Of a stretch of DNA of 64,000 nt, positions 25,484-34,693 are shown piece after piece. The translations under genes and the position numbers were made by a program. The notes beneath the pieces were generated by a model, which was given only the letters and a program-made list of their open reading frames with translations, was not told the origin of the DNA and did no database searches. This DNA comes from Eudorina sp. 2006-703-Eu-15 (Eukaryota > Chlorophyta > Chlorophyceae > Chlamydomonadales > Volvocaceae). Numbering within the stretch: the stretch's first letter is position 1; the number at the start of each line of letters is the position of its first letter. The stretch spans positions 107,110 to 171,109 of the forward strand of contig BDSI01000166.1 of the NCBI GenBank assembly GCA_003117195.1, given 5' to 3'.

Positions 25484-25488
25484 GGCGC
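25484..25488. repeat. Target-site duplication GGCGC, left copy
   Basis: GGCGC directly precedes the left LTR and is repeated directly after the right LTR (31516-31520). A 5-bp duplication is the expected footprint of a Ty3/gypsy integrase. Confidence 0.85.
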
Positions 25489-25934
25489 TGTAGCAGGATG
25501 CTATCAAAATAGCTATTGATCTGCGATCGCTTCGTGCGGGGATCGATCCCGCGACCTTTGAACCTTGACTTTGTTACCTTAACGCTTCCGCAAGCAACCC
25601 GATGTCCTGAAGTGGAAGTAGCTAGTATATGTAGCGAGACGGATGGAAGGTCCGTCGAAGCGAAACCGGTTGTAACCTAGCTGTCGAGTATGGATAGACC
25701 CGTCGATCCGCCGGCTATCCGTTTGGTATCTTTGGTTAGTCGTTGAAGGGCCCGAGTGTCCGAGGGCCCCTCCTGGAGTGTGTACGACATGGAACGCTAT
25801 TTAAGTGGCCCCCAGGCCATTCCGGATTATTATCCTTGATTCCCCTTGACTCTCAGACAACCAAGCTTGTAACTGTTAAGTGTTACACCCGAGGCCCCTT
25901 GTCCCCAGTACCGGAGCACTTCCACCCTTCTCCA
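25489..25934 (+). repeat. Left LTR (446 bp)
   Basis: Begins TGTAGCAGGATG and ends CTTCTCCA. It matches the right LTR at every position I compared except the third-last base. Just beyond it, after one base, TGATATCGAGACCTAGG resembles an initiator-tRNA-type primer binding site, though imperfectly. The LTR contains an antisense tRNA T-arm-like GCGGGGATCGATCCCGC at about 25536-25552. Confidence 0.95.
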
Positions 25935-26149
25935 CTGATATCGAGACCTAGGTTGGCCGACGCGGCGGGGTTCGAATCCCACCGGCGGCAACGGTCCTGG
26001 GCGCGTGCACATTGGTGAGGGGACAGTCAACCCGCATTAGGGTTGAGGCGATCCCCATGTCTGGAACCCTCCCCGAGACCATACCCGGAGTTCCAAGACC
26101 CCAAGACCAAGTTCGATCGAGGACGATCGATTCCCCGAGTGTGGGAAGG
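25935..26149 (+). other. Retroelement leader with candidate primer binding site and a Pol III box-B-like sequence
   Basis: Sequence right after the left LTR, in the orientation of the integrase half. It has the primer-site-like TGATATCGAGACC, and at 25969-25979 GGTTCGAATCC, a perfect match to the tRNA box B consensus, set in a short GC-rich palindrome. I could not build a full tRNA around it. Confidence 0.45.
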
Positions 26150-26255
26150 TGTAGCAGGACAGCCAGCCCTGCTTACAGGCCGGACCGCAAAGAAAAAATA
26201 GCCCAAGAATGGGGTTCCAGACATCTCGAGTAAGCCTTTGTGTCGCGCTGCTACA
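26150..26255. mobile_element. 106-bp segment bounded by TGTAGCAG...CTGCTACA
   Basis: The segment starts with the same TGTAGCAGG as the LTRs and ends with its exact inverted complement CTGCTACA, giving 8-bp terminal inverted repeats. It abuts the left inversion junction. No target duplication is visible. It may be a mini-LTR of a related family or a chance pair of LTR-end motifs. Confidence 0.35.
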
Positions 26256-27555
26256 CTGGCATCAGCCGTTGGAAGGTGGCTGGGGCATTGGTTAGCCCGA
26301 ACGGCATGACCGTGAACTCGAAGTGCCCGTAACGCGTGTTGATCGCGGTCTTGGGAATGTCCTCCTCCGAAACTCGGATCTGGTGATAACCGGACTGGAG
26401 ATCGATCTTGCTGAACACTTTGGCGCCGTGGAGGCGGTCCAGCAATTCGTCTATGCGTGGCAGGGGGTAAACGTTGCGCACCGTGGCCTTGTTAAGGGCG
26501 CGGTAATCGATGCACATACGCAAACCACCATCCTTCTTGGACGCGAAGAGGACTGGGGCACCGTAGGGAGAGACGCTGGGCCGGATATGACCTTGGTCCA
26601 GCAACTTGGTGATCTGGGATTTGAGCTCGGCCAACTCTTCTTGCGACATGCGGTACGAGTTCCGACTCATCGGCTCATGGGTATTGAGCTCGATCTTGTG
26701 GTCCACCGCACGCTGCGGTGGCATCCCCTTGGGTTCAGTGAACACATCCGGAAACTGGTTAAGTACAGGCGACATGTCGACTGCGGGCTTGGACCCTTCC
26801 GGGGTGTCAACCTCGCGTACGACGCAAAGGTTGTACGACCGTGTGGCTCGGACCAGGCGCTTGAACTGGAGGGCGGACAGCAGCTTGGGTTTACGCTCTT
26901 GCATGGCCGTGGGCGGGTCCGAGTGCAGGACCAGCGTTTTGGCGCCTTGGGAAAGCGTGAGCGTGTTCTTTTGCCAATCGATCTGGGGGTTGAATCGCTT
27001 GAGCCAGGGTTTGCCGAGTACCACGTCAAAATCGCCAAGGTCAGTGGCCGTAAGGGTAACACGGCTCTTGTGCGACTTGAGGCAGACGGGCACGTGGGGC
27101 AACACATGGGGGCAATCTTGGTACTGTCCGTTGGCTAGCTTGACCCGAAGGTCAGGCACAGCCTTGGCCGCCTTGAGGTCCTTCCGAGCGAGCCACTTGG
27201 TGCTGACAAAATCACCGGTTGCGCCGCCATCCACAAGGATGAGCGCTCGGCGGCCGCAAACTGTTCCGGCGAAAAGCAGCTGCTGGGCACCTGCGTCCAG
27301 ATGCACGGCTGCTAAGAAAAGCTCTGGTTCTGGGGGCTCATGAGCATCTTGGGCCTGGGAATCCGGGGCTGGGGCTACGGGTTCCGGGGTCTGGGGCTCG
27401 GCTAGGGGCACAGGGGATGTACTGGGTTCCTGGGGGTTCTCGGGTTCCTCTGGGGTGTTCCTGGTGGTTTCTGGGACAGGGCTTGGAACAGACGAACCTA
27501 GGGGTTCAGAGGCAAGGGCCCCTAGGTTTACTTCTCGTTTTTTCGGAGCGGGCAC
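26251..27555 (-). CDS. Retroelement pol, first part: protease and truncated reverse transcriptase
   Basis: The frame opens upstream of gag's stop ([12 protein letters not shown]) and is entered by -1 frameshift from gag. After a P- and E-rich segment comes an aspartic protease ([15 protein letters not shown], with DGGAT in place of the usual DSGAT). Next come RT blocks: [80 protein letters not shown] and [19 protein letters not shown]. The polymerase YxDD block that should follow is absent because the inversion junction cuts the frame, so RT is non-functional as written. It lies inverted relative to the integrase half. Confidence 0.93.
27495..27543 (-). promoter_or_regulatory. Programmed -1 frameshift signal: AAAAAAC, 8-nt spacer, 10-bp hairpin
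   Basis: On the minus strand the heptamer A AAA AAC (27543-27537) is in the gag frame (CGA AAA AAC). An 8-nt spacer follows, then a perfect 10-bp stem AACCTAGGGG / CCCCTAGGTT (27528-27519 with 27504-27495) closing a 14-nt loop. Gag stops at 27530-27528, and slipping back one base enters the pol frame exactly. This matches the canonical X XXY YYZ plus structure layout of retroviral frameshift sites. Confidence 0.88.
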
Positions 27556-28655
27556 TCAATCGCCTTGTGCTTGCCGGTGCGGCACCGGAAGCAGAGGCCG
27601 CTCTCCATGAGCTTCGCCTTCTCCTCGGCCGACAGCTTCTGGAGCTTGGGCGGCGCGGAGGTATCGGTTTTGGGCTTGGGCGGCGGGCCGTTCTTGCCCT
27701 TCTTGGGCACGAACTTGCTTGGGTTGAGGGCGTTGACCTCCATGGCGCTGGTGTCCTTGGACGTGGAGGCACCGCCTTGGCGAGACGGCGCGCCAGCGCT
27801 CTTGATGGCGTGGTCAATGCTCTCTGCCTTGTCGCACAGCTCGCTGTAGGTGAGCTGGTCGGGCTTGGCCACCTGCACAGCCAAGGCAACGCGGACCTCG
27901 GTCGGCAGCGCCGCGATGAGGCGCTCCTTCTTCTCGGACTCTGCGATGTTGGGGATGTGCAGGCACAGCCGGTCGATCTGAGTGACCAACGCGGAGACCG
28001 ACCCCTTGTACATGACCTTGCGCAGCTTGGCTCGGGCCTTGTCGGCGGCAAGGTGGTCCGTGAACTTCTGGGCCAGGTTGGCCGTGGCGTCTGGGTACAC
28101 GAACACCTTGCCCTCGATGTGGGTACGCCAGTACAAGTTGGCGTCACCCGTGAGCATCTGCGCCATGGCGGTCATGCGGCTGGTGTCGTTGAGGCCTAGG
28201 GCATCGAAGTAGTTGTTCGCCCGGTAGATGAACTCGTCCCAACGCAGCTCGCCCTTCTTGCTTTCACCGGAAAAATTGGGCGGGCGCAGGTGCTTGAGCA
28301 CATCTTTCATGACCAGGGCTTGCAACGGGGCTTGGTGCGCGGTCGCGTAGGCAGTTTGCTGGGCTACTTGCTGCGCCGTGTGGTGGGCAACGGCGGCGGC
28401 TTGCTGCTGCGCGACGGCGGCTGCGTGCTGCACAACTTGGTGGGCAGCGGCGCTAGCGGCTTGGTGTGCGGCTTGGGAAGCTTGTTCAGCTGCAGAGTTG
28501 ATGGGGGACTGCAGCGTTTGCTGAACGTGACGCACTATCTCAGGCATGGCTTCACGCATCAACTCTTGCACCAAGCTACGCACGGCTGGGTCTTGGACAG
28601 GTGCAAGTGGGTGAGAGTCAGCATGCGCGGAGCGGGGCGTTTGTTGTTCCTCCAT
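27528..28655 (-). CDS. Retroelement Gag (capsid/nucleocapsid polyprotein)
   Basis: A 375-residue frame starting [15 protein letters not shown]. The N-terminal third is helical and rich in A, Q and H (coiled-coil-like). It is followed by a retrotransposon gag capsid region ([34 protein letters not shown] and [19 protein letters not shown]) and a C-terminal CCHC zinc knuckle [14 protein letters not shown]. It ends [13 protein letters not shown], with the frameshift site overlapping the last codons. Gag binds RNA and assembles virus-like particles. The frame is intact although it lies in the inverted block. Confidence 0.93.
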
Positions 28656-28810
28656 TGTTACAATTCAGAGGAACCCTCGACAACAACCACCGCCACTCGC
28701 AAACTACAGCTCCTTGGACGGCTTGGTTCCAGCCGCCGGCAGGCTAGCCCGCGACGGCTGGTTCTTCTCGGACCGGGACTCGGGCCTGGACTGGGACTTG
28801 GCGTCAGCCG

Positions 28811-30941
28811 CCGAATGGTTAAGGGATTCGCTCACCTTGCTACGCCCCTGACCAATCTGCTCGCCGGCCACACTGGCAAAGGCACCAAGCAGTTGATCAC
28901 GGGTTGGGACGACGATTGCACCAAGGCCTTTCAAGCCATCAAGGACGCACTTACGAGTGCGCCCGTCGTCGCCCCGCCGGACGCCAATTTGCCTTTCACG
29001 GTTACCACGGACGCGTCAGATTACGCGACCGGTGGCGTCCTGTCCCAGGTCCAAGACGGCACAGAACGAGTCATCGCATACGAGAGCCGCAAGCTCACTC
29101 CCACCGAGTGTCGGTACGCCGCGCACGATCGGGAGATGATGGCAGTTGTGCACTGCCTCCGTGTGTGGTGGCACCATCTCAAGGGTCCGCACCCAGTCAC
29201 TATCTGGACGGACAACTCTGCCGTATCCAAGTTCAAGACGCAGCCGCTGCTCAATCGCAGACAGGCTCGTTGGCTGATGGAGTTGGAGGAATTCAACTAC
29301 GTCATCGAGCACAAACCTGGCAAGACCAACGTCGTGGCTGATGCGATTAGTCGCCGGCCCGATTTCCGAGCCGCGGCCCTGACTGTTACAGTCGCCGCAC
29401 CCAAGGAGGACTTGGCCCACACGATCAAGGCGGGTTACCGCAAGGATGCTGAATACATGCAGCTCCGCCTTCAGGCCATGTCCAATCCCGAGTCGCCGTA
29501 CAAGCTGTACAACGGGCTGCTCTACTTCGAGCCCCCAGGTGCCCTGCGTGCACGCTTGGTGATTCCAGATATCCCAGGTCTACGCGCCAAGTTGCTACAC
29601 GAGGCGCATGACATTCCTCTGGCTGGCCATCTTGGCCGTGACAAGACCGTGGCCCGCCTGAGCCGCGCTTTTCACTGGCCGCGCATGGACCATGATGTTC
29701 GACGCTACGTCGACACATGCCCGTCCTGCCAGCGTATGAAACCCAGGCATGGCAAGGTGCCGGGCAAAGCCCAACCGCTGCCGATCCCCGAGAGACCGTG
29801 GCAGTCCATTTCGATGGATCTGATCACGCAACTGCCCAAGTCACACCGAGGCGATGACGCAATTGCTGTGTTCGTCGATCGACTGAGCAAGATGATTCGG
29901 CTGATCCCTTGCAAGACGGACATCACGGCCGAGTACCTGGCCGAGGTGGCGCATGATTGGATTTTCACCATGTTTGGCCACCCCGACAGCATTGTGTCTG
30001 ACCGAGATCCCAAGTTCACAAGCACCTTCTGGCAGACTCTGTTCTCCTTGTCGGGTACAGAGCTGGCCATGTCCACGGCGAACCACCCACAGACAGATGG
30101 GCAGACCGAGCGTGCGAATCGCACCTTGGAGGAGATGCTTCGGCACTATGTGGACGCCACCCAGAACAACTGGTGTGACCTCCTCTCCTCACTCGAGTTT
30201 GCCTACAACTCGTCTGTCCAGGCATCGACGGGGTACTCACCCTTCCGTCTGGTGCTTGGCTTTGAGCCCAAGACCCCACTGTCACTGCTGGAATCGCACC
30301 CGAACTGGGAGCCAGCGAACGTGGCAGTCACCGACTTCATGCTTGCCCGAGAACATGCCCTAGCAATCGCAAAGGCACACGTGCGCGCCGCGCAAACGCG
30401 ACAGGCCCGCCACGTGAACATCAAGCGCAAGGACGTACGCTACAAGCCGGGTGACAAGGTTCTGCTGACAACCGCAAACCTGCGCCTGCTGACGCAAACG
30501 TCCCGGACCAAGTTCAACCCGCGGTACATCGGTCCTCTCGAGGTCGAGTCAGTGGTGTCCCGCAATGCGATCAAGCTCAAGTTGCCGGCCCACATGCCGA
30601 TCCACCCATTTGTGAACATCAGTCAGGTACGCCCGTATCTGTCTGAGCCCAAATTCCCGCCCAGAGACAAGGACTCAGGCTCCACCGAGCCGATCATCAA
30701 CGACACCGGCGACCTGTTCTACGAGGTGGAAGCCATTCTCAAGCGCAACATCACCCCGGTCACGAACAAGGTCTCCTATCTGGTCAAGTTCAAGGGATAC
30801 GACGTTCACGAGAACCTCTACATCGACGAGGCGACCCTGCGCGCTGATGTGCCAGAGCTTGTCGCCCAGTTTGAGAAGGAGAACCCCAGGCCCGCGCAGG
30901 CCGTCAAGACCCGCGCCAACGTGCGCTCAAAAAAGCGCTAA
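28811..30941 (+). CDS. Retroelement pol, second part: RNase H, integrase, chromodomain
   Basis: Coding similarity begins at RRMVKGFAHLATPLTNLL; the open frame upstream of about 28811 is antisense to gag and its leader. RNase H shows FTVTTDASDYATGGVLSQ, the conserved E in CRYAAHDREMMAVVH, and IWTDNSAV. Integrase has an HHCC finger (HEAHDIPLAGHLGRDKT ... CPSCQRMKPRHG) and the DDE triad (SMDLITQLP, SDRDPKF, and E in HPQTDGQTERANRTLEEML). Near the C-terminus, FYEVEAILKRNI to YLVKFKGYDVHENLYIDEATL is a chromodomain, typical of chromoviruses, which target heterochromatin. No stop or frameshift is seen. Without the RT catalytic block this part cannot replicate by itself. Confidence 0.94.
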
Positions 30942-31054
30942 ATTAGGATATCATGCGAATGCGAGCGCGCCCCTAGGTGTCTACCGTGTCATCTTGCCTG
31001 CTGCCGTTGTGTGTTGCTGATCTGTGTGTGTCAGTTGCGAGGACGCAACCCTTC

Positions 31055-31069
31055 GTAGAGGGGGGATGG
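31055..31069 (+). promoter_or_regulatory. Polypurine tract before the right LTR
   Basis: A purine run (AGAGGGGGGATGG) sits immediately upstream of the right LTR start. This is the expected position and composition for the plus-strand primer of an LTR retrotransposon. Confidence 0.75.
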
Positions 31070-31515
31070 TGTAGCAGGATGCTATCAAAATAGCTATTGA
31101 TCTGCGATCGCTTCGTGCGGGGATCGATCCCGCGACCTTTGAACCTTGACTTTGTTACCTTAACGCTTCCGCAAGCAACCCGATGTCCTGAAGTGGAAGT
31201 AGCTAGTATATGTAGCGAGACGGATGGAAGGTCCGTCGAAGCGAAACCGGTTGTAACCTAGCTGTCGAGTATGGATAGACCCGTCGATCCGCCGGCTATC
31301 CGTTTGGTATCTTTGGTTAGTCGTTGAAGGGCCCGAGTGTCCGAGGGCCCCTCCTGGAGTGTGTACGACATGGAACGCTATTTAAGTGGCCCCCAGGCCA
31401 TTCCGGATTATTATCCTTGATTCCCCTTGACTCTCAGACAACCAAGCTTGTAACTGTTAAGTGTTACACCCGAGGCCCCTTGTCCCCAGTACCGGAGCAC
31501 TTCCACCCTTCTACA
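31070..31515 (+). repeat. Right LTR (446 bp)
   Basis: Begins TGTAGCAGGATG and ends CTTCTACA, so its ends form short inverted repeats (TGTAG/CTACA). One difference from the left LTR was found. Confidence 0.95.
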
Positions 31516-31990
31516 GGCGCGGTTACGTAGGGCGCATGTTTGGCTGGCGGAGCCCCCGCCGCCCCTGGAGCAATGTGTCTGGGATGTCGTTGTGTTGGCA
31601 GCGGTCGCGGCCATGGAGACTGGCCGCTGATTCATGGCGGCCGCCCTGCGGCGGACAGCGCCCGGTCAGGGCCCGACCATGTCACCGGGAGGGGAGTTGG
31701 CCAGAGCAAGGGAAGCGGCGTGCGATCGCCGACTTCTGGGGGCGCCTTCATGGGTTTGCCCAGTTGGGCCTCCCGCGACGTGGGTGGACCTCGATGGGAC
31801 CATTCCACCCTTTTTTGATAGTGTCGGGGGCGGGGAGTCTTGCGGTGTGCAGGGCCTGCTCCTGAGGGCTGAGGCACGGGCGCCCCCGTCCTCTGTTCTT
31901 GCTACGGGTTCACCTGCTCGTGGGCCTTGGCCCAAGTTGGGGACCTGGCCTGCCCTCAGCTGCTGTAGGGGGCCGGACTTCCGTTAGATT
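31516..31990 (+). mobile_element. LINE-like remnant, right part, starting with target duplication
   Basis: It starts with the GGCGC duplication, then encodes GYVGRMFGWRSP and, further on, RRAIADFWGRLHGFAQLGLP and GWTSMGPFHPFL. The latter two are paralogous to the 17.8-kb fragment. Frames are broken. It reads as the continuation of the element interrupted at 25483. Confidence 0.45.
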
Positions 31991-33648: not shown

Positions 33649-33720
33649 GTCGCCGTAGTCTAGGCGGTTAGGATACGTGGCTTTCACCCACGCGACCCGG
33701 GTTCGAGTCCCGGCGGCGAC
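33649..33720 (+). tRNA. tRNA-Glu (UUC anticodon)
   Basis: A 72-nt cloverleaf without intron. The acceptor arms GTCGCCG and CGGCGAC pair over 7 bp. The anticodon stem CGTGG/CCACG closes the loop CTTTCAC with TTC at positions 34-36. The D region has TAGTCTAGGCGGTTAGGATA (box A), and the T arm is CCGGG-TTCGAGT-CCCGG (box B GGTTCGAGTCC). CCA is not encoded, as expected for a nuclear gene. Confidence 0.95.
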
Positions 33721-34693
33721 ATTATTGACTGTGATCCATGAGTATGAGTTTAAATTTAGCTGTGGACGTGAGTCCCCACGGCCGATTACCGGTTGACTGC
33801 AGCCATTATTGTTGGTCGTCATTGGACGCGGTGATAGCACGAGACCCCATGCCGCCAATGCAGCCCTGCACCTGTCCACTACGGTCCACTGCAGTGGCGG
33901 GCAGTGAAACCCCTTTTCGTGTGAGTTCATATGCATTCGTTCACTGGTTGTATCAGGTTGTATGAACCTGCTTAGGTTCATGGCAGGGCAGCAAGCGCAC
34001 GTTGCCCCACGCCAGCCCACGAGGCCCACGCACTGCACAGCACTGCAGATGTTGCCTAGTCAACTTTGCCAAATGAGATGCTGCGGGCACTGCAGCCGAT
34101 GGTGCTTGCTGAGGTTTTACTGCGGCGAACTGCTGCAGCAGCTTTGGCGACGCGGAGGACTGAGTTGTTGTACACCGCGTGACACCCAGCATATACGGTG
34201 GGTAAGTTCCTAACAATGGCACCTGTCGGTCCATGACCTTGAAAAAACCTCAACTTCTCCGAAAGATTTTGATTGAGTTGTACTGCGAAGAGCATATCTT
34301 GTGGATTGGTGTCCGGAAAGGTTACTAGTAAGGCTCGGCATTGCCTTGGTTTCGGGAAATCCATTTGCCTTATCTGAGACTCGCATGGAGGCTTGCATGG
34401 AGCTAAACTGTCCGAGGGGGCACGCACGCTTGCACGTAGTTAGGGCTTTGCTTGCCTCGTAATACATGGAGGCTCGCGTTATGGGCATAATTGGGCATGG
34501 GGGCTTAAAGACCGTTACTTTTAACTGTAAACAATATTGAACGCGACCTGTGCACCTGTCGATAAAATATGTCACGTCGTACGACGCCGCATTTAAACGC
34601 CCTACGCGCAGCTCAACATCCGCTGGGTTAAGACTTGGTTTGAATAGAACCTGGCCACCCCGCTGGCTTTGTAGTGAGTGGCCATTGGTGGCC
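33721..34693. other. Intergenic region upstream of DDM1
   Basis: Between the tRNA and the DDM1 start. No gene recognised; short open frames on both strands lack similarity. It should hold the DDM1 promoter and 5' UTR. Confidence 0.5.

Follow-up and report, generated by a model that had tools for sequence, protein, structure and literature searches.

A recent chromovirus insertion in Eudorina with an inverted gag-RT block and a TRIM segment at its primer-binding site, most likely a chimera formed before integration

Layout of the insertion

Between positions 25489 and 31515 of the window, i.e. the whole stretch of 64,000 nucleotides that was analysed (part of contig C166 in our numbering), lies a retroelement that belongs to the chromoviruses on the basis of its RT-RNase H-integrase order, its C-terminal chromodomain, its LTRs and its 5-bp target-site duplication (TSD). 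The order RT-RNase H-integrase-chromodomain is kept in 10 collinear loci of the same family; in the window copy the gag-pro-RT part is inverted. The features are as follows, with L009, one of the collinear copies, as reference:

25484..25488, no strand: left copy of the TSD GGCGC
25489..25934, plus: chromovirus 5' LTR, with a single difference to the 3' LTR, at 25932
25935..25948, plus: spacer C and TRIM-type primer-binding site TGATATCGAGACC (in TRIM copies TGGTATCGAGACC); the LTR/TRIM fusion point
25949..26149, plus: remaining TRIM interior, with a purine-rich tract at its end
26150..26255, plus: TRIM 3' LTR, 106 bp, TGTAGCAGGAC...GCTGCTACA
26256..26259, plus: CTGG, as found after TRIM 5' LTRs, where the primer site starts; then junction 1
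26260..28814, minus: inverted chromovirus block (L009 2116-4682) that holds the start of RT, the protease, gag and some of the leader
28808..28814, no strand: junction 2, with the 7-nt microhomology CCGCCGA
28808..30941, plus: a single open frame for the end of RT, RNase H, integrase and chromodomain (L009 from 4991)
31056..31069, plus: chromovirus polypurine tract, by inspection
31070..31515, plus: chromovirus 3' LTR
31516..31520, no strand: right copy of the TSD GGCGC

A sequence-only reading of this DNA had described a recent insertion with an intact GGCGC duplication and LTRs that differ by one base, in which gag-pro-RT lies on the minus strand, RNase H, integrase and chromodomain lie on the plus strand, and the YxDD block of RT is missing. 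On all these points our analysis agrees with it. The two LTRs (446 bp each) have their sole mismatch at 25932 (C versus A), 3 nt from the LTR end and thus from the fusion point, and the TSD is intact on both sides. The minus strand carries a gag ORF, which is without a Pfam match, followed by the protease and the start of RT (RVT_1 profile positions 3-134 of 205). The Pfam domains on the plus strand are RNase H, H2C2, the integrase core, a Tf2-1-like SH3 and the chromodomain (Chromo, E 2.7e-07). By comparison with L009, two pieces are missing from the element: 308 nt of RT (L009 4683-4990), the natural translation of which contains YLDD, and the part of the leader that is equivalent to L009 1468 to 2115. 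About 2.1 kb downstream of the element lies a tRNA-Glu(TTC) gene (33649-33721).

The TRIM segment and the two junctions

The matches of the element to collinear copies end at 25948, inside the primer site, and restart at 26260. The 325 bp between the 5' LTR and the inverted block (25935-26259) are absent from all collinear copies compared; this segment is the key to the mechanism and had been overlooked in the sequence-only reading. It consists of a TRIM-like primer site, an interior (215 bp with the spacer), a 3' LTR and then CTGG, and it matches a dispersed repeat at at least 54 places (the window and partial matches included). The copy of this repeat on C2 is 427 bp long (~0.43 kb), with 106-bp LTRs and the TSD TCGCC, and TSDs were also found around the copies on C9, C88, C100, C174 and C68. 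With its two short LTRs, primer site, purine tract and 5-bp TSD the repeat qualifies as a TRIM, its non-coding nature being judged from its length. The bases CTGG follow the 5' LTR end in 9 TRIM copies and none of the 14 outer LTR ends (16 loci were scanned, of which C178 and the second copy on C49 yielded no outer end).

What the TRIM and the chromovirus have in common are the LTR tips and the primer-site region; beyond these, a comparison of the window TRIM piece with three collinear copies gives a best short match of 17 nt, which runs from the purine tract into the start of the LTR. The TRIM primer site agrees with the 3' end of a tRNA-Met(CAT) gene found in this genome; that of the chromovirus falls one base short of this match. 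tRNA-Met(CAT) is the predicted primer of both elements. The 3' end of tRNA-Met(CAT) has 40 exact occurrences, mostly in arrays spaced ~2.26 kb (on C11, C231, C363, C1261 and C2201), and one copy (L074) was confirmed as tRNA-Met. The sense strand of the TRIM interior at 25949-25993 resembles what we take to be a tRNA 3' half, with a B-box-like GGTTCGAATCC; ARAGORN made no tRNA call at this stretch, and 25900-26300 had no match in Rfam. An assignment to Helenus/TRIMp3, in which tRNA-derived sequence lies within the LTR, was rejected, as the tRNA-like stretch sits in the interior and not in the LTR.

The assembly (181.2 Mb, 3033 contigs) was searched for the family and for both junctions. The nearest named proteins, from Gonium pectorale (73%) and Volvox africanus (72%), place the host most likely among the volvocine green algae. 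Fourteen family loci were laid out and compared, more copies being present among the matches; 10 contain both halves, collinear in every case, and the other four contain a single part (one of these, L019, is the remainder of the C7 element in L018). The sequence-only reading had proposed a search for the same junctions at other flanks, and this search yielded no second copy of either. Among the matches listed (at least 51 places), no other extends further than 13 nt on both sides of 26260, and an overlap of this size is what a TRIM LTR with its adjoining primer site gives; among those listed for junction 2 (at least 40 places), only the window's own spans 28808-28814. Opposed LTRs on C46 were considered as another inverted element and rejected: they belong to a solo family LTR (TSD GCTTC) within an inverted duplication of host DNA (L066/L067, 544300-545200 and 549850-550700; 765 bp, 99.9%). 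A repeat present on C704, C2582, C148 and C599 (L068, L069, L071 and L072; in L068 with a tandem spacing of 3131 bp) holds a chromovirus RT fragment of ~156 bp (98%) that starts at L009 4989, two bases from junction 2, which is either chance or a common break hotspot.

The fusion at the primer site was followed in the same way. In 9 family copies the chromovirus LTR end runs into the chromovirus primer site (11 matches; the contigs of the remaining two, C98 and C176, have no LTR match). Two loci have the TRIM primer site directly after the chromovirus LTR end, namely C32, where the match is exact, and the window, where it has two changes. The other 11 of these 13 matches are eight TRIM LTR ends, a similar LTR end with TTGGTATCGAGAC on C29 and C93 (on C29 adjoining a 79% LTR match) and a distant one on C536. 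The reciprocal fusion, i.e. a TRIM LTR end with the chromovirus primer site, is absent from the 11 matches obtained.

A wrong assembly of pieces from several repeat copies, favoured by a family rich in copies of ~99% identity, is very improbable in view of these data: the window is free of N, the inverted block is not flanked by inverted repeats of at least 20 bp, the joins rest on at most 7 nt, the same 5-bp TSD stands on both flanks, and a second chimera of the same partners (see below) has a TSD as well.

A second chimera and the origin of the templates

Contig C32 (L051) holds this second chimera, which combines the same TRIM and chromovirus by other junctions. Its plus strand begins with an inverted TRIM LTR, interior and primer site, followed by an inverted chromovirus LTR end (from about window position 25810), at most 55 nt of filler, about half of which matches the leader of another copy, and finally the chromovirus from mid-leader to 3' LTR, minus L009 3152-4778. 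The outer ends are thus a TRIM LTR end and a chromovirus LTR end, and since both lie inside one 5-bp duplication, AGCTG, the chimera must have integrated as one molecule. Both chimeras contain the hybrid chromovirus LTR-TRIM interior-TRIM LTR, complete in the window and with a 5'-truncated LTR in C32; the end of the hybrid is joined antisense inside RT in the former, and head to head with a 5'-truncated chromovirus in the latter.

The TRIM parts of C32 and the window differ in 19 alignment columns (two due to end cutting), and the TRIM copy on C9 differs from the window in 8 columns and from C32 in 13 (one each due to end cutting), which indicates that the TRIM templates of the two chimeras were different. 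The inverted LTR piece of C32 has the same variant pair, CGATTAT/A, as the 3' LTR of that insertion. Of the 21 LTR ends matched (at 23 loci, some of them overlapping), only these two and L022 show the pair; a small deletion in the same piece has no other occurrence (one match). In the window, both LTRs share two adjacent private bases that are absent from 20 other LTRs (of at least 380 nt), and the pair can therefore be traced to one RNA. As the TRIM-fused LTR carries the variants of the 3' LTR of its own insertion in both cases, each fusion probably arose in the reverse transcription of that insertion.

These findings bear on two further explanations. A normal or hybrid copy could have inserted and been rearranged later in the chromosome, break repair having inverted gag-RT and patched in the TRIM. 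Such repair also gives inversions and short-homology filler, and junction 2 indeed has 7 nt of microhomology, but in this case a TRIM lacking its 5' LTR would have to be joined precisely where LTR and primer site meet, with an inversion breakpoint at the TRIM end besides, while LTRs one difference apart leave little time since insertion and C32 indicates that such chimeras integrate as units. Rearrangement after insertion is therefore unlikely. Alternatively, the rearranged form may have arisen at an earlier locus and transposed as such to the window site, its LTRs, primer site and polypurine tract being all present, so that its transcript could in principle be copied by helper enzymes. This, too, seems decidedly unlikely: neither junction is spanned elsewhere in the 181-Mb assembly among the matches listed (a source copy may be missing from the assembly), and C32 was rearranged differently, with a different TRIM sequence.

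The LTR most like those of the window is on C14, with 3 mismatches over 446 positions. For the inverted block the best match is C7 (6 in 2546), followed by C235 (12 plus gaps), and the rest of the coding part is about equally distant from both (14 in 2257 for C7, 13 in 2248 for C235). The affinity of the inverted block to C7 (Poisson P 0.001, in a test chosen after the data had been seen) suggests that a second chromovirus template contributed to the window element; alternatively, C7 may itself be recombinant. In six other copies the two LTRs differ at 1, 3, 3, 5, 14 (plus gaps) and 5 positions, small differences which indicate that the family is generally young.

Formation of the chimera and its relation to known insertions

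The window insertion is real and recent, and most likely a chimera that predates its integration. The sequence-only reading had offered four origins without choosing between them, namely template switching during reverse transcription, a change after insertion, mobilisation of a rearranged form and an assembly error. Our results best support reverse transcription, given a second retroelement fused at the primer-binding site, LTRs that both derive from one RNA and the integration, as a unit, of a second and independent chimera with these partners; mobilisation of the rearranged form found no support, and the other two are unlikely.

In LTR-element reverse transcription, plus-strand transfer normally occurs at the primer site, and the fusion in the window sits exactly on the border between LTR and primer site. 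It is highly probable, in our view, that the insertion is a chimeric cDNA formed before integration, in a particle holding chromovirus RNA and TRIM RNA. Chromovirus plus-strand strong-stop DNA (the LTR with a copy of the primer site) would have been transferred to TRIM minus-strand cDNA via the common tRNA-Met primer site, which would result in the hybrid of chromovirus LTR, TRIM interior and TRIM LTR. The free end of this hybrid, with CTGG retained from a primer site, would then have continued, by extension or by joining, into the RT region of the chromovirus and have run antisense through RT, protease and gag as far as the leader. Pairing of that end over 7 nt (CCGCCGA) with a chromovirus cDNA, at a point close to where RT ends, would have supplied the remainder up to the 3' LTR, and integrase would have used the two LTR ends of the product for insertion, with a 5-bp duplication as the result. 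The sequence itself shows the segments, the TRIM piece, the primer-site fusion, the microhomology, the common LTR origin, the TSD and the second independent chimera; the co-packaging and the order and polarity of the joins are inferred, and the second and third joins may be either template switches or cDNA end-joining.

A microhomology of 7 nt, as at junction 2, was reached in 0.04% of 200,000 random inverted joins. The folding of the RT region near this junction is not unusual (z 0.11 and -1.31) and lends no support to a structure at which reverse transcriptase would pause. Counting against the proposed course, junction 1 (26259/26260) has little or no homology (at best GAT, or GATG with wobble), the variant pair of C32 recurs in L022, and the tRNA match of the chromovirus primer site is incomplete by one base. 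Autointegration at junction 1 was set aside, as CTGG stands between the TRIM LTR end and the RT sequence. Taken as sequence evidence, the window element suggests that both elements were copied inside one particle, and from the two chimeras we infer that the TRIM is mobilised by the chromovirus, i.e. that TRIM RNA enters its particle.

The TRIM itself shows a further peculiarity. The first 28 nt of its LTR form a palindrome, and in six of the 10 copies read (C88, C9, C100, C174, C68 and C178, i.e. L052, L053, L056, L058, L061 and L062) the 5' LTR tip is swapped for the inverted arm (TGTAAGCAGG...); five of these six have matching TSDs. The 5' tip is normal in two (C2, C49) and truncated in two (C114, C127), and the 3' LTR tips are normal in all 9 aligned rows. 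Since the RNA carries the 3' U3 only, inverted 5' tips next to normal 3' tips suggest snap-back self-priming in each cycle. In L073 (C49:689300-690000), a miniature TRIM derivative with the TSD CTGCC, the right end is the inner palindrome arm (...CTTACA), which apparently served as an integration end. A more speculative extension, which we hold to be possible yet somewhat doubtful, is that TRIM and chromovirus nucleic acids are routinely co-reverse-transcribed in particles where self-priming and cDNA end-joining are common: snap-back would remake the TRIM palindrome in most cycles, leaving unlike tips, and the same tendency would produce inverted chimeras that integrase accepts. If so, inverted chimeras would be a readable record of which element copies which.

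The insertion resembles a known kind, the template-switched insertions; new is the nearly unrelated TRIM partner, fused at the primer site, together with the inversion. Sabot and Schulman (2007, PMC1950507) recognised template-switched complex LTR-retrotransposon insertions in grasses by one TSD and matching outer LTRs, and explained them by co-packaged RNAs and template switching. The window element likewise has two parent sequences, one outer TSD (GGCGC) and highly similar outer LTRs (1 difference in 446). Unlike theirs, with an internal third LTR and two complete interiors, its third LTR is that of the TRIM, and the TRIM interior is complete while the chromovirus interior lacks pieces of leader and RT; moreover, its partner is a TRIM almost unrelated in sequence, and it has an inverted block. 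In the Dasheng/RIRE2 chimeras of rice (Jiang et al. 2002, as mentioned in PMC5473765), Dasheng is large and related to RIRE2 in its LTRs, and the passage mentions no inversion, whereas the TRIM of the window belongs to a 0.43-kb element that has only LTR tips and primer-site region in common with its partner, and a block is inverted. The maize tandem TRIM array of Gao et al. (2016, PMC4717578), two inverted TRIMs within the TSD CTTCA, is like C32 in having head-to-head retroelement units in one TSD, but consists of two TRIM units, with no autonomous partner mentioned in the passage cited. The Onsen recombinants of Arabidopsis (Sanchez et al. 2017, PMC5668417) arise by pairwise mixing of co-packaged RNAs and are, like the window element, new insertions that are mosaics of such RNAs; they concern one Copia family, and the cited part mentions neither an inversion nor a TRIM partner. 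A literature search covering titles, abstract openings and cited passages found no report of a TRIM-helper chimera with an inversion.

According to the passages cited from Gao et al. (PMC4717578), most TRIMs are without a known helper, related larger elements being given for 11 of 289 subfamilies, with the remark that interactions need verifying; Kojima (PMC10886601) argues, in the part cited, that trans-mobilisation is possible without LTR homology. The TRIM and the chromovirus described here share little beyond LTR tips and primer site, and a similarity search would therefore not pair them. Two independent chimeras do tie the one to the other, and their main value is as evidence that the chromovirus of the window copies its TRIM. 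They also indicate that a cDNA with a large internal inversion remains integrable, and in other genomes, too, chimeric insertions of this kind could be used as physical evidence that two elements were co-packaged.
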